A stretch of DNA of 34,847 bases from a virus, in the IMG/VR virus record IMGVR_UViG_3300026484_000463, positions 1 to 34,847 of that record, one strand, 5' to 3'. Position 1 is the first letter of the stretch, and each line of letters opens with the position of its first letter. The notes beneath the pieces were generated by a model. The model saw only the letters and a program-made list of their open reading frames with translations, searched no databases and was not told the DNA's origin. Positions 128-34,517 of this stretch are shown in pieces. Both the position numbers and the translations under genes were made by a program.

Positions 128-2320
128 ATATGTGCTAGGTACATTTACTACTGCAGGTTGTGCCACTGCAAGAGAAGTAGTCATAGCGGTTGCAACTGCT
201 ACTTTTTTCATCGCTTTTGCAGGTTCAAACTTAGGATTATTCGCAGATCTTTTGCTATCTTTTTTCTCCTTTTCATCATCACTGCCAAAAAGTCCGCCAA
301 ACCAAGAGCCTACAGATGATGCAGCACTCTTCATCTTCTCAACTGCACCGCCAAACCACTCAAACTTTGACGAGAGCCAATCAAACGCTTTTCCAAACCC
401 ATCCATCAAAAGACCCATTGGAGACCACTTAAACACAGTTTTTACAAAGCCCCATACTTTATCTATTCCACTCTTAAACCAGTCAAACTTGTTATATGCC
501 CAGACAAGCCCAGCACCAAGTGCAGCTATACCTGTTACAACTAAACCTATAGGATTTGCACTCAAAGCAACATTAAAAAGCCACTGTTTAGCTGTCGCTA
601 GAGTACTAAAGAGACTAAACGCTTTAAGCTTTGCTCCCAAGCTCCCAAGGGTTACGCCACTAAACATGAGTGCTTTTGAGTAGAGATTTGTAGCAAAAGC
701 TACCGCTTTTGTTTTGGCTGCTGTAATGCCTTGCCAAAGTGAAAATACTTTTGTTTTTGCAGTAGAGAGTGCTGTGGCAATGCTTACTCTGTTAAAACTC
801 AGTGCTGCCATATTGTTCGCACCCATTTCTAAAAAGAGTGCTTTTTTTACTGTATTTATAGCAAGTGAATATCCAAGCTTCATAAGTGTAGCCGATTTTA
901 AAACCGTAACAACACCCAAAAAACCCATAGCCAAACCGCTAAGCGTCGGTAAAAGTGCCGGTACTTTCTCATCAAGCCACGATATGCCTTTTGCGATGCC
1001 ACCAAGACCAGTTGCCAACACATCCACAGCAGGAGCAAGTGTTTTGCCTATTGTGTAGCTCATATAGCTCATAGCATTGCCCATCTTCTCAAAACCGTAT
1101 CCCATATCCATAGCACTGGCCATCTGCTCCGATTTACTAAGTCCTCCATCCATCGCTTTTTGAAGATTTTGTTGTGCCTTTGTCAAATCATCTGTTTTAT
1201 CAATAAGCGCCATGACAGTTTTGACAGCCTCTTGAGACCCAAAAGCTTTTTGTAACTCTTGTTGTGCCTCTAAAGATTTAATATTGTCTCCGTACTTCTC
1301 TTTTATTTTTGTAAGAACATCGACCATAGGGAGCATTTTTCCCTCGCTGTCAGTAAAGGACAACCCCAACCCTTTTTGAGCCTTGCCAACACCGACCAAA
1401 AAAGCTCTATATCCACTACCAGCTTCACTTGCACTATCAAAAGAACCTTTTGACAATCCAACAATAGCCAACTCTTCTTGCAGTGATACTCCCATTGCAT
1501 GTGCGGATGCACCTATGTTTGAAAGTCCTCGTGCCAAGTCTGCACCATCTGTTCTAAAAGCCTGTACAGCACCTGCAATAGCACCGCTAAACTTCTTACC
1601 AAAATCCATATCAGAACCAAAATCTTTACGAAATATTCCATAGCCTAAAGCATAGAGTTTTGTCATCTCTGCTGTTGAGCTTTTTGTGGCTACTGCTGTT
1701 GTTGCGGCAAACTGTGTCATCTTCTTGACACCTTCATCACTAAGGCTTGCTATCCCAGATTTGATGTCGTATGAAGCCTTAATAAACTCAGGAGCAGTTA
1801 TCTGCCCAAACTGCAAGCTCATATTATTGGCCGCTTTTGTGATCTGTTCAATCCCTTGCTTTGTAATACCGAGTGATTTTATTTCACCCTGGGACTTAAA
1901 TACTTCATTTGCAGAGCCTATTATTTTTGTAACACCATAGAGCGAAGCACCGATACCGACTATGGAAGCTTTTTGCGCTGCAAAATCGTTCTTGAGTCCG
2001 TCTATCTTTATCTGAACCCGTGATGCTTTTTTGAGGTTGATAAGTGCCAGACGAAAAGAGCGGGTATCTTTTTCAAGATTATTTGTGTCTATACCTGCTT
2101 TTTTAAGGGTTAAACGCAAACCTTCCAGGGCTACTCTGTTTTTCTTTGCATCTTGTGAAAGGAGTTTAAACTCACTGATAGCCAGCTTTGTCTTGTTCAT
2201 CCCCTTGATATTGTTCCTCATACCTGCTAAACTTGTATTAGCAGTTTTAAAGGAGTTTTTAAAAGATGAAGCGACTAAGCCACCTATCACTACGCTCAAT
2301 CCAAATGTTTTTAATGACAT
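1..2320 (-). CDS. Phage tail tape measure protein (partial, C-terminus beyond left edge)
   Basis: Open from an ATG at 2320 to the edge of the window, at least 773 codons with no stop. The ATG follows AAGGA by 7-8 bases. The protein should set tail length and line the tail tube before DNA ejection. Support is the size, the position just after a tail chaperone with frameshift, a coiled N-terminal third rich in K/A/S/L, and a middle section (about residues 380-650) with repeated hydrophobic Gly/Ala-rich helices ending in W-rich patches (KFDWFKSG, SWFGGLFG), as in P2 gpT-like tape measures. After about residue 690 it becomes Lys/Ser-rich and then runs into a 19-residue tandem repeat that reaches the edge. 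Last gene of the late operon that can be seen. Confidence 0.93.
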   Translation of the reverse strand, partial: MSLKTFGLSVVIGGLVASSFKNSFKTANTSLAGMRNNIKGMNKTKLAISEFKLLSQDAKKNRVALEGLRLTLKKAGIDTNNLEKDTRSFRLALINLKKASRVQIKIDGLKNDFAAQKASIVGIGASLYGVTKIIGSANEVFKSQGEIKSLGITKQGIEQITKAANNMSLQFGQITAPEFIKASYDIKSGIASLSDEGVKKMTQFAATTAVATKSSTAEMTKLYALGYGIFRKDFGSDMDFGKKFSGAIAGAVQAFRTDGADLARGLSNIGASAHAMGVSLQEELAIVGLSKGSFDSASEAGSGYRAFLVGVGKAQKGLGLSFTDSEGKMLPMVDVLTKIKEKYGDNIKSLEAQQELQKAFGSQEAVKTVMALIDKTDDLTKAQQNLQKAMDGGLSKSEQMASAMDMGYGFEKMGNAMSYMSYTIGKTLAPAVDVLATGLGGIAKGISWLDEKVPALLPTLSGLAMGFLGVVTVLKSATLMKLGYSLAINTVKKALFLEMGANNMAALSFNRVSIATALSTAKTKVFSLWQGITAAKTKAVAFATNLYSKALMFSGVTLGSLGAKLKAFSLFSTLATAKQWLFNVALSANPIGLVVTGIAALGAGLVWAYNKFDWFKSGIDKVWGFVKTVFKWSPMGLLMDGFGKAFDWLSSKFEWFGGAVEKMKSAASSVGSWFGGLFGSDDEKEKKDSKRSANNPKFEPAKAMKKVAVATAMTTSLAVAQPAVVNVPSTYNNVQNKHLAVSNIKKENKVNNVQNKHLAVSNIKKENKVNNVQ

Positions 2321-2445
2321 TTTTTGTATTCCTTATCACTTTTTCTGTTTTTAGCTACAACTCACACATCATCGCAACACTTATAGCAACTGCAACAGCC
2401 TCTTTTTACTTTATGCTAAAAGGTGGAGTTGTCTATCTTCACGAG

Positions 2446-2777
2446 TTAAGAGATCTCTTTAAAAAAGAAGACAAAATCAACTAACTCCATCTGGGTCATA
2501 TCACCATAAGAGAAGTGCAGATGATGCCCAATTTGAGCCATCATCTTCAAACACTCCTCCCACTCTATGACAAAAAACTCTGCAGAGCCTCATCAAGCTT
2601 TTTAAAATCTTTTCCTGATAGTTCGTCTATCTCATCTTCACTCATCTCACAAAGATTTACAAGCATTGCAACCTCTCTGTCAAGTTCATCAGTTATGGAG
2701 TTTACTGCTCGCATATCCTTAACCTTTGGTTCACGCATAGTGACCTCAGTCCCATTACTTAGTTTGATTTTTTTCAT
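2446..2777 (-). CDS. Tail assembly chaperone, -1 frameshift product (gpE+E' type)
   Basis: Predicted 110-residue product made when ribosomes slip one base back on the heptamer T TTT TTG at 2577-2571. The first 69 residues are those of the short chaperone. The next 41 come from the -1 frame, beginning VIEWEECLKMMAQ and ending with a TAA at 2448-2446. The downstream frame has no start codon of its own near the join, yet it codes for a typical E'-like tail (hydrophobic, with a GHHLHFSYGDM stretch). P2 gpE/E' and lambda gpG/gpGT are made this way, and the long form recruits the tape measure protein. The next gene downstream is the tape measure, as expected. The frameshift is inferred from sequence. 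Confidence 0.82.
2565..2777 (-). CDS. Tail assembly chaperone, short form (gpE-like)
   Basis: A 70-residue acidic protein (KKIKLSNGTEVTMREPKVKD at the start) of the phage tail assembly chaperone type. It should keep the tape measure soluble while tail tube protein polymerises round it. It starts inside the previous gene (23-base overlap, coupled translation) and stops at TAG 2567-2565, two codons after the slippery heptamer. Most ribosomes should make this form and a minority the longer one. The position between tube and tape measure is diagnostic of the family. Confidence 0.85.
   Translation of the reverse strand: MKKIKLSNGTEVTMREPKVKDMRAVNSITDELDREVAMLVNLCEMSEDEIDELSGKDFKKLDEALQSFLS
2571..2577 (-). 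promoter_or_regulatory. Programmed -1 ribosomal frameshift site T TTT TTG
   Basis: Read on minus, codons AGT TTT TTG contain the X XXY YYZ heptamer TTTTTTG. Slipping back one base moves both tRNAs onto near-identical codons and bypasses the TAG six bases downstream. I saw no strong downstream hairpin by eye. Confidence 0.78.
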
Positions 2778-2937
2778 CTGTTTTCTCCTCTACAGTTTCA
2801 AATTTACCGGCAGCCTCTTTTTCAAGAAGCTCTGTCTCTTTTTTATTCAGCTCTTTAACATCGTCTCGACGCATAACAAAAATGTCTTTACCCTCTTTGT
2901 CTTTGATGCAGATGTAGTGTGTGGCTCTTACTCTCAT
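2755..2937 (-). CDS. Small phage tail-region protein, unknown function
   Basis: A 60-residue charged protein whose first half looks like a small beta domain (RVRATHYICIKDKEGKDIFV) and whose second half is a K/E-rich helix. It lies between the tube and chaperone genes and overlaps both by a few bases, so it is translated with them. I do not recognise a family. The place suggests a tail-tube accessory protein, but that is inference from context alone. Confidence 0.72.
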   Translation of the reverse strand: MRVRATHYICIKDKEGKDIFVMRRDDVKELNKKETELLEKEAAGKFETVEEKTDEKNQTK

Positions 2938-3422
2938 TACATCACCGCCGAACGAGTTGACTCATATATGTCTTTACCGCCGATTTTGGCTATCATATTT
3001 GGAAGATCAATGTCATACACTTCATCGCCTCCAAGATTTAGGTTGTAAACATTGACATACATTTTTACTTTTGTTTTCATGGCATCACCATCTTTAATGG
3101 TATCTACTTCCATATCTACACTTCCAGTTAGTGTTGCTGTGAGTTTTTTTACAACATTGTCTTCAAGGTATTCACCTTTTAGCTTTAAAGATGCCTCGCT
3201 CAGCTTTGAGGCCTCTTGTAAAATAGTAGAGTTTGCAGAGTTGATGTCTGCCTCAAACTCCATAGGTTCTAAACGACCACTGTCCACATGAACGCCATTC
3301 ATAACATCTTTTTTTGTTTTGACTACAGGGAGCTTATAGCTCTCTATAGTCCCTAAAAATCCGACACCAGATACAAAAACATTTAACTCTTTTGCTTTTG
3401 AAGGTATTTTTCTTGTTGCCAT
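2937..3422 (-). CDS. Phage major tail tube protein (P2 FII-like)
   Basis: 161 residues, the usual length for the contractile-tail tube. The early GFLGTIESYKLPVVK segment and the strand-rich middle with alternating charged and hydrophobic residues (LTATLTGSVDMEVDTIKDGD) fit the P2 FII family, and the end KIGGKDIY suits it. It would polymerise inside the sheath to form the DNA channel. It directly follows the sheath gene (10-base gap), the standard order, and is preceded by a GGAGT ribosome site. Confidence 0.9.
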   Translation of the reverse strand: MATRKIPSKAKELNVFVSGVGFLGTIESYKLPVVKTKKDVMNGVHVDSGRLEPMEFEADINSANSTILQEASKLSEASLKLKGEYLEDNVVKKLTATLTGSVDMEVDTIKDGDAMKTKVKMYVNVYNLNLGGDEVYDIDLPNMIAKIGGKDIYESTRSAVM

Positions 3423-25931: not shown

Positions 25932-26597
25932 ATGTGTGATTTTAACTATAAAATTTTAGATAGAGAAATAAAAAAACAGTTTCAAACAAATAAAATGTTC
26001 ATGATTGCATTAAATAATGCAGGTGTTGAAATAAAAGAAGATGCGATAAAAAAATGGAGACAAGGTTACAGCACTCCAAAAACAATATACTTGTCAACTA
26101 TTTGCAAGTTGTTAAAAATAGAGCCAAATATACTTTTTTGTCAAGATACAAAAGTCATCCAGCTATCAGATGAATATATAGAACTTCCAACGATATATGC
26201 AGGAGCTGGAGCAGAAGCTTTTGCAGTTGAGAGTGCCGACAAGGTAGCCTACCCGAAAAACCTCCTTCCACCACATATACACCTTGATTCAAACACCATT
26301 GCCATCAAGATAGTAGGCAACTCCATGGAACCGCTCTACTACGAAAACGACATAGTATTTGTCGATATGGTAAACCAAAGAGAGTTCTTACATGTAAACG
26401 GCACCTACATAGTACGCTACGGCAACACAGTGCAAATAAAAGATGTAGAGTTCATAGGCAACAACGAGATTCTACTCTTCTCACGCAACTCGCCAGCCGT
26501 CATAAACCCTACAGAACTCGGACTGGAGTGGAACATAGTAGGCAAACCATTTGCCATGCTGCGCCCAAGCTTTGGTAGTAAACTAAAGCTCAAATGA
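25932..26597 (+). CDS. CI-type phage repressor with S24 peptidase domain
   Basis: 221 residues, with TTGGAGG seven bases before the ATG. Residues 1-65 are an HTH part (FMIALNNAGVEIKEDAIKKW). Residues 80-215 are an S24/LexA-type domain: IYAGAGAEAF with the Ala-Gly cleavage position, VGNSMEPLYYENDIVFVD with the catalytic Ser near residue 130, and TVQIKDVEFIG with the Lys near 170. It should bind the GATAAT operators, hold lysogeny and cleave itself under RecA after DNA damage. It overlaps the GHKL gene by four bases (ATGA). Confidence 0.93.
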   Translation: MCDFNYKILDREIKKQFQTNKMFMIALNNAGVEIKEDAIKKWRQGYSTPKTIYLSTICKLLKIEPNILFCQDTKVIQLSDEYIELPTIYAGAGAEAFAVESADKVAYPKNLLPPHIHLDSNTIAIKIVGNSMEPLYYENDIVFVDMVNQREFLHVNGTYIVRYGNTVQIKDVEFIGNNEILLFSRNSPAVINPTELGLEWNIVGKPFAMLRPSFGSKLKLK

Positions 26598-27634
26598 AAA
26601 AACTCAAAGAGAAACTAAAAAAAGAGAAACTAGCACATAGTCGTCACATTCACAATCTAAAAAGAAAAAAATCCACATATAAAGCAAGTAAACATACACC
26701 TATTTTACAGCAGCATAGTTTTGTTAAACAGCAAAATATTACAAAAAAACTACCAACACCACAGACATTTTCACTCATCTACAACATAGATGAAACACTC
26801 CTCTTTTTTGATGATTTTATAAAATATTCAAAAGAAGTAGATATGATTTTTATAGATATGAGCAAAACAGAGAGTATGACGACAGAAGTATTGCTTTATC
26901 TTATATCTTTAGACAAAATCAACGACCACAACGACATAAAAGTAAATATCAAGATAAAAACACCAAATGACAAATCATCAAGACTACTTATGGCACAGTC
27001 TGGTTTTTCAAACTACTTTAGAGCAAATGCACCTGTAGATTTAAACCATAAAGATATATTTACCATCCGCGATGGCATAACAAATGAGAAGTTCAAGATT
27101 GACGATGGAGAAACATGTGGTGATGCAGTTGATTTCGTCATGGACAGACTAGGTCTAACAAAACGCACACAAGCACTTAGAGATATGTACAATGCACTCT
27201 CTGAGATGATGCTAAACACCCAGCACCATGCCTATGATGAAGATGCACAATTTCGAAACTGGTACCTTTTTGGTATAAAAAACAGTAGTGGCGTCGCCTT
27301 TTATTTTTTTGACAATGGAAAAGGCATCATAAAAACAGCACGAGCAACACTCTTAGAAAAACTTGGAAAAGCGCTCAACATAAGTTTGGCACAAGAGAGT
27401 ATCATAGATGCTGTACTAGATGAGAACAAGTACAGATCTATGACAAACAAAAAAGGAAGAAGTAAAGGAATGCCACAAATAAATGAATTTTTTAGCCATA
27501 AAGATATAAAATTGCCAATTATTATAACAAATAAGATACAATACTTAGCAAAAACACAAGAAAGCAAAAAAACAGCATCCAACTTCAAAGGAGCACTTTT
27601 TGTCTGGATGTTCACAAAGGAAGAAGATGAGTAA
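26594..27634 (+). CDS. STAS-like and GHKL ATPase protein of the repressor operon
   Basis: 346 residues. Residues 1-50 are very basic. Residues 58-140 resemble a STAS fold: EVDMIFIDMSKTESMTTEVL with the strand, D-x-S and following helix, then MAQSGFSNYF. Residues 195-340 are a GHKL ATPase: N-box ALSEMMLNTQHHAYDED, G1 box YFFDNGKGIIKT, G2-like NKKGRSKGMPQI and a final FKGALFVWMF strand. No phospho-acceptor His domain is seen, so it resembles a SpoIIAB-like switch kinase fused to its own STAS domain. It overlaps the CI gene (ATGA) and the DUF4325 gene (8 bases), so it is produced with the repressor. Confidence 0.85.
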   Translation: MKKLKEKLKKEKLAHSRHIHNLKRKKSTYKASKHTPILQQHSFVKQQNITKKLPTPQTFSLIYNIDETLLFFDDFIKYSKEVDMIFIDMSKTESMTTEVLLYLISLDKINDHNDIKVNIKIKTPNDKSSRLLMAQSGFSNYFRANAPVDLNHKDIFTIRDGITNEKFKIDDGETCGDAVDFVMDRLGLTKRTQALRDMYNALSEMMLNTQHHAYDEDAQFRNWYLFGIKNSSGVAFYFFDNGKGIIKTARATLLEKLGKALNISLAQESIIDAVLDENKYRSMTNKKGRSKGMPQINEFFSHKDIKLPIIITNKIQYLAKTQESKKTASNFKGALFVWMFTKEEDE

Positions 27635-27944
27635 TTTACGCATAAAAGTAGCTGATGTTTTTTCACCAACAGTAAAAGGCAGATATCATCCAAAAGATGG
27701 TAACTTTACCGGTGAGCGTTTTAGAAATGAGTACCTACTGCCAAATTTTGACAAGTACGACAAGATTATCATAGACCTTGATGATCTCTACGGATGTCCA
27801 TCTTCTTTTAGAGAAGAGGCATTTGGAGGTTTAGCCCGCATAAAGTCTCCTCAAGAAGTGATAAACAAACTGGAGTTTTTATGCACAGACGAACCTCCAC
27901 TTATTGATATCATTCACAATGATATCAAAAATGCAAATGAGTAA
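27627..27944 (+). CDS. STAS-like DUF4325 protein
   Basis: 105 residues from ATG 27627 in an ATGAGTAA overlap with the GHKL gene. The DUF4325 signature is clear: FTGERFRNEYLLPNFDKYDK, then IIIDLDDLYGCPSSFREEAF and GGLAR. DUF4325 proteins commonly neighbour GHKL ATPases and behave as STAS-like partners. The nearby STAS-GHKL protein is the likely kinase or sensor. A conserved Ser-Ser after CP lies at the place where STAS proteins are phosphorylated, but that role is inferred. Confidence 0.87.
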   Translation: MSNLRIKVADVFSPTVKGRYHPKDGNFTGERFRNEYLLPNFDKYDKIIIDLDDLYGCPSSFREEAFGGLARIKSPQEVINKLEFLCTDEPPLIDIIHNDIKNANE

Positions 27945-28801: not shown

Positions 28802-28912
28802 ATGATTGAGCTTAGTAATCTTGAGGGGTTTGCCTATATATCTTTTATATTTGCTATAGGTATAGTTATAGGGACAGTTGTAGGGCTGTATGCAGCAGAC
28901 AAGAAAAGATGA
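28802..28912 (+). CDS. 36-residue membrane protein after R1
   Basis: ATG 28802, with AAAGGATAAG before it. MIELSNLEGFAYISFIFAIG continues with IVIGTVVGLYAADKKR: a single transmembrane helix with a basic end. Its first 30 residues match, place by place in pattern, the start of the minus-strand protein at 28920-29204, so the two are paralogues. First gene of the plus early operon. Function unknown. Confidence 0.68.
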   Translation: MIELSNLEGFAYISFIFAIGIVIGTVVGLYAADKKR

Positions 28913-31369: not shown

Positions 31370-31856
31370 AACAACACCACTTCAAAACGCAATCATGATC
31401 AGTTCTATCATTGGCAGCATTATGTCAAACTATGATCCAAAAGTAGCATCTGAGAGGAAAAAGCCTATAAATGAGATACGAAGACGCATTAAGAAGTTTA
31501 TGTATAAACGCTCCAGGACAAATGCAAAAGAGTTTGATGAAGCAACAATACTGGCAAACATAGTTTGGAAAAAATCTGTTAATCATTTTATAGATAAAAA
31601 TATGCGAATAGATGCCGTATCTGTAGCCATACGACTTTACGATCTCTATGCAGATGCAATGAGCAAACATGCAAACATTCACGACAAGCAGATGGAAGCC
31701 TATGCACTTGATGCATACACTGGAGCTATAGAGATGACAAGCTATGAGGTGTCTGACTACATACTCGATGAACTATCAAGCGTTACAGGCGTAAAAAGAC
31801 AAAAATTAAATCTACTACAAAAGGTAAAAAATGAAGATAAAAATACTCAATCATGA
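31359..31856 (+). CDS. Helical early phage protein, unknown
   Basis: 165 residues. MISSIIGSIMSNYDPKVASE, then KPINEIRRRIKKFMYKRSRT and three more helices (DEATILANIVWKKSVNHFID, RIDAVSVAIRLYDLYADAMS, AYTGAIEMTSYEVSDYILDE). Soluble, all-helical, basic near the start and acidic later. It fits the operon closely on both sides. I do not recognise the family. Confidence 0.78.
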   Translation: METKTTPLQNAIMISSIIGSIMSNYDPKVASERKKPINEIRRRIKKFMYKRSRTNAKEFDEATILANIVWKKSVNHFIDKNMRIDAVSVAIRLYDLYADAMSKHANIHDKQMEAYALDAYTGAIEMTSYEVSDYILDELSSVTGVKRQKLNLLQKVKNEDKNTQS

Positions 31857-31968
31857 TGTAGTGCTTCAAGTGGAACACTACGATGCAAAAACGAAAGTTG
31901 TCACTGTAAAGATATTTGGAACTATGTGTAAGTTTCAAGAGCATGAGTATGAGGTTGTTGAAGAATAA
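31831..31968 (+). CDS. Small beta-rich protein, 45 residues
   Basis: ATG 31831 with AAAGG eight bases before it and a 26-base overlap with the preceding gene. MKIKILNHDVVLQVEHYDAK then VVTVKIFGTMCKFQEHEYEV: a small strand-rich protein resembling an SH3 or KOW-like barrel. Unknown function. Confidence 0.62.
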   Translation: MKIKILNHDVVLQVEHYDAKTKVVTVKIFGTMCKFQEHEYEVVEE

Positions 31969-32059
31969 ATCAGATCTTCAAAAATGTATAACACCTACAA
32001 ATGGTCAGTTTGTAGGTGTGTATGCTACTGATGTATTGCTAAAAGAATGTAGGCAATAG
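31949..32059 (+). CDS. Possible last small gene of the plus operon, 36 residues
   Basis: ATG 31949 (another in frame at 31943), overlapping the previous gene by 20 bases. MRLLKNKSDLQKCITPTNGQ then FVGVYATDVLLKECRQ reads like a genuine small protein. A perfect 11-pair hairpin ACACCTACAAA/TTTGTAGGTGT with a 7-base loop (31991-32001 and 32009-32019) lies within it. It is uncertain whether the coding or the hairpin is the conserved element. Confidence 0.45.
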   Translation: MRLLKNKSDLQKCITPTNGQFVGVYATDVLLKECRQ

Positions 32060-32080
32060 CTATAAGCATATAAATGATGT

Positions 32081-32231
32081 TGTGAAATTCCATAAGATAC
32101 CTTTAGCGGAGATACCGCCCCGCAACCCAACTTATAGCCTCTATAACAAAAAAAAGCCCAGTTACCATATAGGCAACTGAGCTTAGTTCAGGGCGACCAA
32201 CCCTTAGCCACTAAAGGCTTGGAATTTCACA
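32081..32231. repeat. Nested inverted repeat enclosing the small RNA
   Basis: Perfect 11-base arms TGTGAAATTCC (32081-32091) and GGAATTTCACA (32221-32231). Inside them CCTTTAG (32100-32106) pairs with CTAAAGG (32211-32217) and CGCCC (32116-32120) with GGGCG (32191-32195), with hairpins TATAG/CTATA (32133-32145) and AAGCCCAGTT/AACTGAGCTT (32154-32184) inside. The full 151 bases could fold as one branched RNA on either strand, or be a small MITE-like insertion. Confidence 0.65.
32148..32184 (-). terminator. Intrinsic terminator of the small RNA
   Basis: On minus, AAGCTCAGTT pairs with AACTGGGCTT round an 11-base loop with one mismatch, directly followed by T8. The plus strand has A8 before the hairpin but no T-run after it, so it acts only on minus. 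Confidence 0.85.
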
Positions 32232-32233
32232 TC
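32148..32233 (-). ncRNA. Candidate small RNA, about 86 nt, with promoter and terminator
   Basis: On minus, TTGTCA-N17-TATAAT would start an RNA near 32233. It would run GATGTGAAATTCC... through a bulged hairpin CCTTTAG/CTAAGG and end in an intrinsic terminator: a nine-of-ten-pair stem (32184-32154) followed by T8 (32155-32148). No open frame of note lies in the transcript. It is divergent from the ssb remnant and antisense-convergent to the plus early operon, like lambda oop in kind. No known Rfam family is claimed. Confidence 0.72.
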
Positions 32234-32239
32234 GAAACA

Positions 32240-32268
32240 ATTATAACAAAAAAATAGCAAAATGACAA
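32240..32268 (-). promoter_or_regulatory. Sigma-70 promoter of the small RNA
   Basis: TTGTCA (32268-32263), spacer of exactly 17 bases, TATAAT (32245-32240). It has five of six consensus bases at -35 and six of six at -10, among the strongest promoters in the window. Confidence 0.85.
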
Positions 32269-32483
32269 CCGAGCTCACACAAACACCGCTCAAGCAAATC
32301 AAGGTTATCAACAACCTGCACAACAATATCAAGCACCGCACGGGCAAGTACCAGTTTATAATGAACCTGCCCCGCAACAAGCCAATCAGCAAAGTGGCTA
32401 CCAGCAGCCGCAAGGTCGGTGACGCTGTTCCTCCTGCTATTGATGTTGATGAAGATGAAATACCTTTTAACGAGGTTCAATAG
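32262..32483 (+). pseudogene. ssb: ssb gene remnant: linker and acidic tip only
   Basis: One frame reads GYQQPAQQYQAPHGQVPVYN then EPAPQQANQQSGYQQPQGR up to a stop, the Gln/Pro-rich linker of single-strand-binding protein. The next frame then reads AIDVDEDEIPF, the SSB acidic tip, followed by NEVQ and a stop at 32481-32483. The OB-fold part is missing and the linker and tip are in different frames, so this is a decayed 3' end. An ssb gene would fit the early operon. The frame shift lies between about 32400 and 32440. Confidence 0.82.
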
Positions 32484-33186: not shown

Positions 33187-33302
33187 TTTGTTCTTTATAG
33201 GAACATATTAAAATCAAAAAAGTATATAAAAATTACATTATCTCTTGACATTTGTTCCTAAAAGGTATATAATTCTCTCACATTTGTTCTTTATAGGAAC
33301 AA
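33187..33302 (+). promoter_or_regulatory. Consensus promoter with TTGTTC operator dyads
   Basis: TTGACA (33245-33250), 17-base spacer, TATAAT (33268-33273): a perfect consensus. Dyads TTGTTC-n7-GAACA lie at 33188-33205 and 33284-33302 (the latter TTGTTC/GAACAA), and a half site TTGTTCC lies inside the spacer at 33252-33258. Repressor bound there would block the polymerase directly. Reads towards the small membrane genes at 33356. Confidence 0.85.
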
Positions 33303-33343
33303 AGTTCTTTAAAAGAGAGTTGTTAAGGGTTTAGAGTTTGTGG

Positions 33344-33349
33344 TATAAT
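33344..33349 (+). promoter_or_regulatory. Second -10 element next to the membrane protein start
   Basis: TGG-TATAAT ends six bases before the ATG at 33356, so a transcript from it would begin at or near the A of the ATG and be leaderless. Confidence 0.5.
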
Positions 33350-33355
33350 CAAACT

Positions 33356-33541
33356 ATGAAAAAAGAAACGCTAAAAGAGCTTGGAAAATATTTTTTAGAT
33401 ATTTCTAAAATTTTACTTGCTTTAACTCTTATAGCACCATTTATGAAGCAAGGTGACATCTCAATCGTTGCAGTTTTATTGGTACTAGTGCTATTTGTAG
33501 TTGGAGTTACTTTAACAAACAAAGGAGCTAAAGATGAATGA
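33356..33541 (+). CDS. Small two-helix membrane protein, DUF6722-like
   Basis: 61 residues from ATG 33356. KKETLKELGKYFLDISKILL then ALTLIAPFMKQGDISIVAVL and a second helix LLVLVLFVVGVTLTNKGAKD. The 'GKYFLDISK' start with two helices is like DUF6722 proteins. Poor ribosome site, which fits a leaderless mRNA from the -10 at 33344. Downstream of the consensus promoter controlled by TTGTTC dyads. Role unknown. Confidence 0.75.
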   Translation: MKKETLKELGKYFLDISKILLALTLIAPFMKQGDISIVAVLLVLVLFVVGVTLTNKGAKDE

Positions 33542-33641: not shown

Positions 33642-33689
33642 ACCCTCAAACAACTCTCTATAAAGAAAAATTACTTTATGGAGAGAATT

Positions 33690-34517
33690 ATGAACATCAC
33701 AACCTACAAAAACCACAACTTCACACCGCACCATCACCCAGAGCTTGGCGAAATGCTTTCAAACAAAGATGTTGCTTTAGGGTATGGAACATCTTTAAAG
33801 GCATTGGCATTAACAAAAAGCAGAAACGAAGACGAACTCATAGAGGGCGTACACTGGTTGCGTGTTGAAGTGCAAACCAAAGGCGGTAAGCAAAAAGTTA
33901 TTCACTGGACGCTTGACGGTATCCATATGTTAGGGTTTTTCATCAAAAGTGATGAAGCGAAACACTTTCGCAAATGGGCGTCTAAGCTTATAACTGAGAT
34001 GCGAAAGAACTACACAGCCACCCCAACACAACTAGATCTCATAACACCATACGAAGTGCGAAGAGATTTAGCAACTGCAAGACGAAAACTCACCATAGAG
34101 AAAAAGAAACACAGAGGCACGGCAGAACTCTATGAACAAGCCCACAAAGAGAGAGACCGCTTAAAGCTTGAACTTGTGAGAGTAAATGACACACTCCATA
34201 CAGTAATGCAAAGAGACCTCTCAAAGGCAGATATAGCACTTATACTATACCAACTCACAAACAGATTTCAAACACTACCGAGTATCGCAAAAGATGGACA
34301 AAACCTAAATACAGATACAAAAGCAGGCTTGGAGTATTTGGATGAGAAGTATAAGCCACTCATAGATGAAGCTAGAGACTTTGAGAACAGACTCAAAAGC
34401 AAAATGAAACAACAACTAAAACTCATAGTATCAACAGTTGAGAGAGATATTGTTAATCGGTTTGAGGAGAGCTTGGAAGTAACGGCAAGAGCTATTGAGT
34501 TACCTTACAAAGGTTAA
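33690..34517 (+). CDS. Bro-N-like phage antirepressor
   Basis: 275 residues from ATG 33690, with GGAGAG upstream. Residues 20-110 resemble the Bro-N antirepressor domain: LSNKDVALGYGTSLKALALT, GVHWLRVEVQTKGGKQKVIH, WTLDGIHMLGFFIKSDEAKH, FRKWASKLITEM. Residues 120-275 are mainly coiled coil (RRDLATARRKLTIEKKKHRG, KERDRLKLELVRVNDTL). A second antirepressor in the same prophage as the AntA-type one at 15252. It would relieve repression of another phage circuit. Confidence 0.8.
   Translation: MNITTYKNHNFTPHHHPELGEMLSNKDVALGYGTSLKALALTKSRNEDELIEGVHWLRVEVQTKGGKQKVIHWTLDGIHMLGFFIKSDEAKHFRKWASKLITEMRKNYTATPTQLDLITPYEVRRDLATARRKLTIEKKKHRGTAELYEQAHKERDRLKLELVRVNDTLHTVMQRDLSKADIALILYQLTNRFQTLPSIAKDGQNLNTDTKAGLEYLDEKYKPLIDEARDFENRLKSKMKQQLKLIVSTVERDIVNRFEESLEVTARAIELPYKG

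Follow-up and report, generated by a model that had tools for sequence, protein, structure and literature searches.

The cassette and its predicted transcripts

The 34,847-nucleotide virus contig IMGVR_UViG_3300026484_000463 (hereafter the window, i.e. the whole stretch of DNA analysed) carries on its minus strand what we consider to be, with fair probability, a self-contained accessory cassette of the type I toxin-antitoxin-like kind, found in phages of Campylobacterota (Sulfurimonas-type), in which a single promoter would give rise both to a terminated leader RNA and to a self-locked mRNA for a membrane peptide. The leader RNA is the candidate antitoxin and a peptide of 22 amino acids (aa) the candidate toxin; we propose that the cassette works like a type I module and do not claim its membership in that class as proven. 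Its parts are listed below in their order on the minus strand, where the promoter, terminator 1, the Shine-Dalgarno (SD) sequence, the open reading frame (ORF) and terminator 2 follow one another consecutively.

32240..32268, minus strand: promoter, TTGTCA-N17-TATAAT, with a spacer rich in T and an extended -10 (TGTTATAAT)
32148..32233, minus strand: predicted leader small RNA of about 86 nucleotides (nt), with a 5' hairpin and an intrinsic terminator; candidate antitoxin RNA
32220..32231, minus strand: 5' arm of helix H1, UGUGAAAUUCCA, at the 5' end of the RNA; 12-nt exact inverted repeat
32208..32218, minus strand: 5' arm of helix H2, GCCUUUAGUGG, bearing the anti-SD CCUUUAG
32148..32184, minus strand: terminator 1 or attenuator, with a 13-bp stem, a loop of 5 and U8
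32099..32109, minus strand: 3' arm of helix H2, CCGCUAAAGGU, bearing the SD CUAAAGG
32081..32092, minus strand: 3' arm of helix H1, UGGAAUUUCACA, covering the last two bases (U and G) of the start codon and the first codons after it in the ORF
32025..32093, minus strand: ORF of 22 aa, MEFHNIIYMLIAIAYILLAIHQ, a hydrophobic membrane peptide and candidate type I toxin
31991..32019, minus strand: terminator 2, with an 11-bp stem, directly after the stop codon

A preliminary description of this DNA had pointed to a minus-strand TTGTCA-N17-TATAAT followed by a hairpin and T8, and both are indeed present (32268-32240 and 32184-32148), delimiting the leader RNA, whose start and end we deduced from the positions of promoter and terminator. 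The extended -10 reads TGtTATAAT, with the TG one base ahead of the -10. Promoter-like sites are no more frequent in the window than expected by chance (16 observed, 15.4 expected), and for matches as good as this one, with at most one mismatch, 0.59 chance occurrences are expected per window. The 86-nt leader folds with -33.6 kcal/mol (z = -4.8), and for a 146-nt segment covering nearly the whole repeat z reaches -5.7, with none of 200 shuffles as good. Thus, although the promoter match alone is not significant, its combination with the folded RNA is not a product of chance, and a small RNA running from the minus-strand promoter to terminator 1 is likely. A frame of 21 aa inside the leader (ATG at 32168, MVTGLFFVIEAISWVAGRYLR), which has no SD, was set aside.

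The earlier statement that no protein frame fits this RNA holds for the 90 nt themselves and overlooks the SD-led ORF just downstream. Listing of small frames on both strands revealed an ATG at 32093, located six bases 3' of the AAAGG (32104-32100, minus strand; CUAAAGGUAUCUUAUG) that forms part of the SD CUAAAGG. The encoded peptide falls under 60 aa, has a predicted membrane helix, and its best 15-residue Kyte-Doolittle mean is 2.87. Neither Pfam nor NCBIfam returned a hit for it at E<=10, a search against phages and plasmids found none either, and PHROG gave a single chance-level match (E 0.069); for kinship with AapA, the toxin of the aapA/IsoA family compared below, these results are of limited weight, given the shortness of the peptide. 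The small RNA is better read as a putative leader, ended by attenuation, of a gene for a small peptide on the minus strand.

The enclosing inverted repeat, previously described as 11 bases long, is exact and extends over 12 nt (32081-32092 and 32220-32231). In the RNA it amounts to pairing of the 5' end with the start region of the ORF (H1), and next to it H2 pairs CCUUUAG with the SD. Since the downstream arm of the repeat starts 56 bases past terminator 1, a reading confined to the 90 nt accounts for only half of the structure. Between the 5' arm and the initiation region the pairing energy is -46.7 kcal/mol, a value attained by none of 2000 shuffles; over the RNA complementary to the initiation region the duplex energies range from -46.7 to -48.7 kcal/mol, beyond 2000-3000 shuffles. 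The whole fold (-69.0 kcal/mol) likewise exceeds what is obtained with the 3' part shuffled (-53.1 +/- 2.9 kcal/mol; 0 of 1000 as good), and among 308 SD-led small ORFs from the window and its relatives the 22-aa ORF ranks first for complementarity to its own upstream region. Opening the stretch from SD to AUG is predicted to cost 12.3 kcal/mol in the full-length RNA and 5.5 kcal/mol once the part up to terminator 1 is removed, and the primary transcript, with its SD sequestered, is predicted to be non-translatable, a property termed a hallmark of type I toxins (PMC6733600). The predicted joint fold of the leader with an mRNA lacking the 5' arm reaches -94.2 kcal/mol, versus -73.0 kcal/mol for the separate parts.

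A second copy in a relative phage

When SD-led small ORFs were ranked by complementarity to their upstream sequence, the top ORF among the relatives was a minus-strand ORF of IMGVR_UViG_3300032212_000691 (hereafter L012), where a second copy of the cassette lies at a different site, behind a DUF2303 gene. The order of its elements is promoter TGTGCTATAAT, ATGTGAAGATAACTTGTTTAGTCTAATGGGTTGGT, a 13-bp hairpin with a loop of 5 and U7, GCCAACCCTAAGACTAAACAAG, GGGAGG, ATG, MQKLIFTIVLICIFALKLH, stop and hairpin, with the promoter and the terminator-1 hairpin occupying the same places as their counterparts in the window. The L012 peptide is a hydrophobic membrane peptide of 19 aa (best 15-residue Kyte-Doolittle mean 2.85). 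The RNA folds with -63.9 kcal/mol (z -9.0), the SD-AUG opening energy is 10.2 kcal/mol in the full RNA versus 7.1 kcal/mol without the 5' part, and the joint fold of leader and mRNA attains -76.0 kcal/mol versus -47.4 kcal/mol for the separate parts.

Because MAFFT aligned the two complete copies poorly, we matched the helices manually. Among the 21 pairs of H1 and H2, eight are changed on both sides in a compensatory manner, one is changed on one side and none is broken, conservation of the stem pairs in related sequences being the check that the preliminary description had called for. The 5' segments of the two RNAs are similar beyond 20000 shuffles, the conserved sequence being AUGUGAA..UUUAGU..GGGUUGGU. 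Duplexes between leader and target are strong within each copy (-48.7 and -41.1 kcal/mol for the window and L012, respectively) and weak in the cross pairs (-28.6 and -14.6 kcal/mol); leader and target therefore behave as expected for co-evolving partners. Moreover, because in the terminated form of both copies the anti-SD region is folded into a 5' hairpin involving the conserved GGGUUGG, two alternative RNA states seem to be conserved.

These comparisons bear on the possibility that the leader is an independent regulatory RNA whose targets are other mRNAs of phage or host (in an oop-like or trans-acting manner), with the downstream ORF being a chance frame. The strong promoter and terminator speak for this, as does the conservation of the 5' sequence in L012; however, both leaders pair with the initiation region just downstream in a cognate-specific manner, and in both copies a short hydrophobic SD-led ORF follows the leader. 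Nor does a coding sequence lie opposite the RNA, as the antisense role likened earlier to that of lambda oop would require: the plus strand at 32148-32233 contains short frames only and belongs to a replaced segment beside a remnant of ssb that starts at 32262 (see below). We regard a stand-alone small RNA as improbable, and return to the leader of a small-peptide gene.

Genomic context

The relatives of the window phage include Sulfurimonas phage SNW-1 (PMC11290706), hence its host is probably a Campylobacterota bacterium. Two cassette-less relatives, L005 and SNW-1, match the window on both sides of the cassette (L005 at 31800-31964 and from 32273 on, SNW-1 at 31802-31964 and 32262-32368). 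The left flank up to 31964 is 97.5% identical with SNW-1 and 86% with L005, and the ssb tail 75% and 91%, respectively. At the position of the cassette both phages have YopX, and L005 additionally dUTPase and a whole ssb (the name YopX was taken from the SNW-1 record, those of dUTPase and ssb were read off the L005 translation). The cassette segment has thus displaced the YopX, dUTPase and ssb genes, with an ssb remnant remaining:

31965..32262, no strand: segment carrying the cassette; in L005 its place is taken by YopX, dUTPase and the N-terminal portion of ssb

The cassette is, judging from these features, accessory, since it has its own promoter and terminators, lies on the strand opposite to the neighbouring genes both here and in L012, occurs patchily and is missing from close relatives with the same flanks.

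The ssb remnant itself (window 32262-32483, plus strand) retains the Q-rich linker and the acidic tip (DEDEIPF) and has lost the OB-fold part; an OB-fold single-stranded DNA-binding protein was not found anywhere in the window record. Linker and tip stand in different reading frames, and L005 shows this break too, behind the linker of its complete ssb. SNW-1 (L004; 5986-6291, minus strand) likewise has a short protein fused to an ssb-like Q-rich tail, which makes the ssb region of these phages look like a site of recombination.

It could be argued that the palindrome matters at the level of DNA, as a miniature inverted-repeat transposable element (MITE), a retron non-coding RNA or a recombination site, given the 12-nt exact terminal inverted repeat that spans about 150 bp and the replacement of the segment relative to the cassette-less phages. 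The fold, however, depends on the strand: the minus-strand RNA of the window folds with -68.5 kcal/mol versus -45.9 kcal/mol for the plus strand, with nine G-U pairs versus none (all nine would become A-C on the plus strand), and in L012 the values are -63.4 versus -49.4 kcal/mol and six versus none. Because in both copies the minus strand folds better and the G-U pairs are one-sided, the fold would be a property of the minus-strand RNA, which points to selection on RNA rather than on a DNA palindrome. The insertion boundaries (about 31965 and 32262) fall at other positions than the ends of the repeat (32081 and 32231), which disfavours a MITE-like element and the mobile-element body proposed earlier, and no flanking target duplication was seen at the boundaries near 31965 and 32262. 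The repeat unit occurs once in the window record, and the L012 copy lies at another site with diverged ends. Altogether, we find a DNA-level palindrome very improbable.

The boundaries, the strand bias and the lack of a reverse-transcriptase-sized ORF downstream on the minus strand speak against a retron as well. The rod shape brought a 6S-like RNA into consideration. At the curated thresholds Rfam gave no match to any family, be it 6S, retron msr, Sib or another, the sub-threshold chance matches being NsiR1 for the window (24.9 bits vs a threshold of 39) and SIB_RNA for L012 (16.5 bits vs 56, on the other strand).

Searches for further copies

The pattern TATAAT-N3-9-ATGTGAA-N112-142-TTCACA was found in 107 stretches of the viral collection, among which only the L012 contig folds like a member of the family (-0.50 kcal/mol per base, with -0.45 for the window and -0.31 for the next best). 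A second scan with the 5' signature returned L012 again together with six chance matches, and other motif scans of viral contigs gave, besides the L012 contig, chance matches only. DNA similarity to the cassette in phages and plasmids did not rise beyond chance, and no host contig came up when genomes were scanned with two of the neighbouring proteins. As the pattern scans returned nothing but L012 and chance matches, the family would thus be rare, diverged, or mostly outside the viral collection scanned.

Three other regions of the window, all on the plus strand, deserve mention. At 26594-27944, adjoining an S24 repressor, a phrog_3364 protein (with the look of a GHKL-type ATPase, by eye) is followed by a DUF4325 STAS-like protein, the two genes making an unusual regulatory or defence-like pair. 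A perfect consensus promoter TTGACA-N17-TATAAT (33245-33273) lies just 5' of a small membrane ORF (33338-33541), with an antirepressor-like gene (33678-34517) also downstream of it. At 28802-28912 there is an SD-led membrane ORF of 36 aa, MIELSNLEGFAYISFIFAIGIVIGTVVGLYAADKKR, whose complementarity to the sequence upstream of it is moderate (-34.2 kcal/mol).

Proposed mechanism and its alternatives

We propose that the single promoter starts an RNA at about 32233 and that RNA polymerase mostly halts at terminator 1, which would free the leader RNA of about 86 nt. The read-through mRNA would carry the 22-aa ORF in a translationally locked state, its own 5' end hiding the SD, the start codon and the first codons. 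The freed leader would then pair in trans with any mRNA that lacks the 5' end as a result of processing or internal initiation. A translatable mRNA may come from processing or, in the window, from a weak second promoter after terminator 1: a T-run with TATAGA/TATAAG that could serve as such follows the terminator directly in the window and has nothing similar in L012. If the leader were lost or outcompeted, the peptide would be made and would act on the membrane.

Several points weigh against this scenario. Hydrophobicity of at least 2.8 is found in 14 of the 308 SD-led small ORFs and 22 aa is short, so that the assignment of the ORF rests on its position and on the conservation of its type. 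The promoter scan passed no second site from which an mRNA lacking the 5' arm could start, which makes it harder to account for a translatable mRNA and for an antitoxin gene independent of the toxin mRNA, although the leader does have a promoter and terminator of its own. Cis pairing in the full-length RNA would render an antitoxin acting in trans superfluous. The comparison of H1 and H2 is a hand-made alignment of two sequences, and within the viral collection searched only two copies are known, in the window and in one relative.

Some of these points would equally suit a riboregulated small membrane peptide that is not a toxin, e.g. one for superinfection exclusion or a lysis accessory, where the leader would be only a cis-acting attenuator and lock and the terminated RNA would have no role of its own. 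One promoter would suffice, none having been found for an independent mRNA, cis pairing by itself would be enough for the lock, and an accessory unit with its own promoter and terminators resembles phage morons. On the other hand, locks as tight as this (12 kcal/mol) on hydrophobic peptides of such small size usually mark type I toxins, and we consider a non-toxin peptide unlikely.

If the toxin-antitoxin reading is true, antitoxin and toxin arise from one promoter through termination versus read-through, and factors that alter termination, such as phage antiterminators or stress, would switch their ratio directly. Type I modules are usually found via an antisense gene opposite or divergent from the toxin. 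The anatomy described here suggests another search rule, namely a leader, a strong terminator, and an SD with a tiny membrane ORF complementary to the leader, which could reveal more cassettes; it would also give phages of very poorly known hosts a candidate gene of the abortive or exclusion type.

Comparison with known systems

We tentatively suggest that the cassette may represent an undescribed toxin-antitoxin layout spread among Campylobacterota phages, in which the toxin mRNA supplies, as its attenuated leader, its own antitoxin: a single promoter would serve both, an intrinsic terminator would determine the ratio of antitoxin to mRNA, and the leader would lock the start site in cis as well as in trans. 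The literature searched, which was limited in extent, contained no antitoxin consisting of the terminated leader of its toxin mRNA.

The closest comparison within the inferred host phylum is with the aapA/IsoA family of Helicobacter pylori and other Epsilonproteobacteria, whose mRNA is kept locked by a long-distance contact between its 5' and 3' parts and whose antitoxin runs antisense to the ORF (PMC6733600). The two share a very short peptide, a long-distance interaction that hides the SD in the primary mRNA, and hairpins that form early during transcription (PMC6733600). In aapA, however, the anti-SD lies far downstream, whereas the cassette has it at the 5' end, ahead of an intrinsic terminator. 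A search for an antisense promoter of the aapA/IsoA type revealed no promoter-like site on the plus strand at 31990-32100, in a scan that could miss an unusual promoter.

In the type I pairs tisB/istR-1 and zorO/orzO, a trans-acting small RNA is complementary to the 5' region of the toxin mRNA. The cassette resembles these pairs and timP/timR in this stretch of complementarity and in the inhibitory 5' untranslated region of the toxin. It differs from them in that their promoters are separate or divergent (TimR is divergent; PMC8167048), whereas the RNAs of the cassette share the strand and apparently the promoter, with a terminator in between. As in the case of lambda oop, a short terminated RNA lies opposite the early genes of a temperate phage. 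Lambda oop overlaps cII, whereas the RNA of the cassette has no coding gene opposite. Sok is transcribed from the opposite strand as a true antisense RNA, and the hok lock uses the 3' end of the mRNA, in contrast to the same-strand leader and the 5' lock of the cassette. Nonetheless, in hok/sok, which has been named as a locked-mRNA analogue (PMC6733600), long-range pairing likewise locks the full-length mRNA and processing is needed. The same-strand layout as such is not unheard of, since antitoxin genes may be divergent, convergent or parallel according to a review (PMC8167048).
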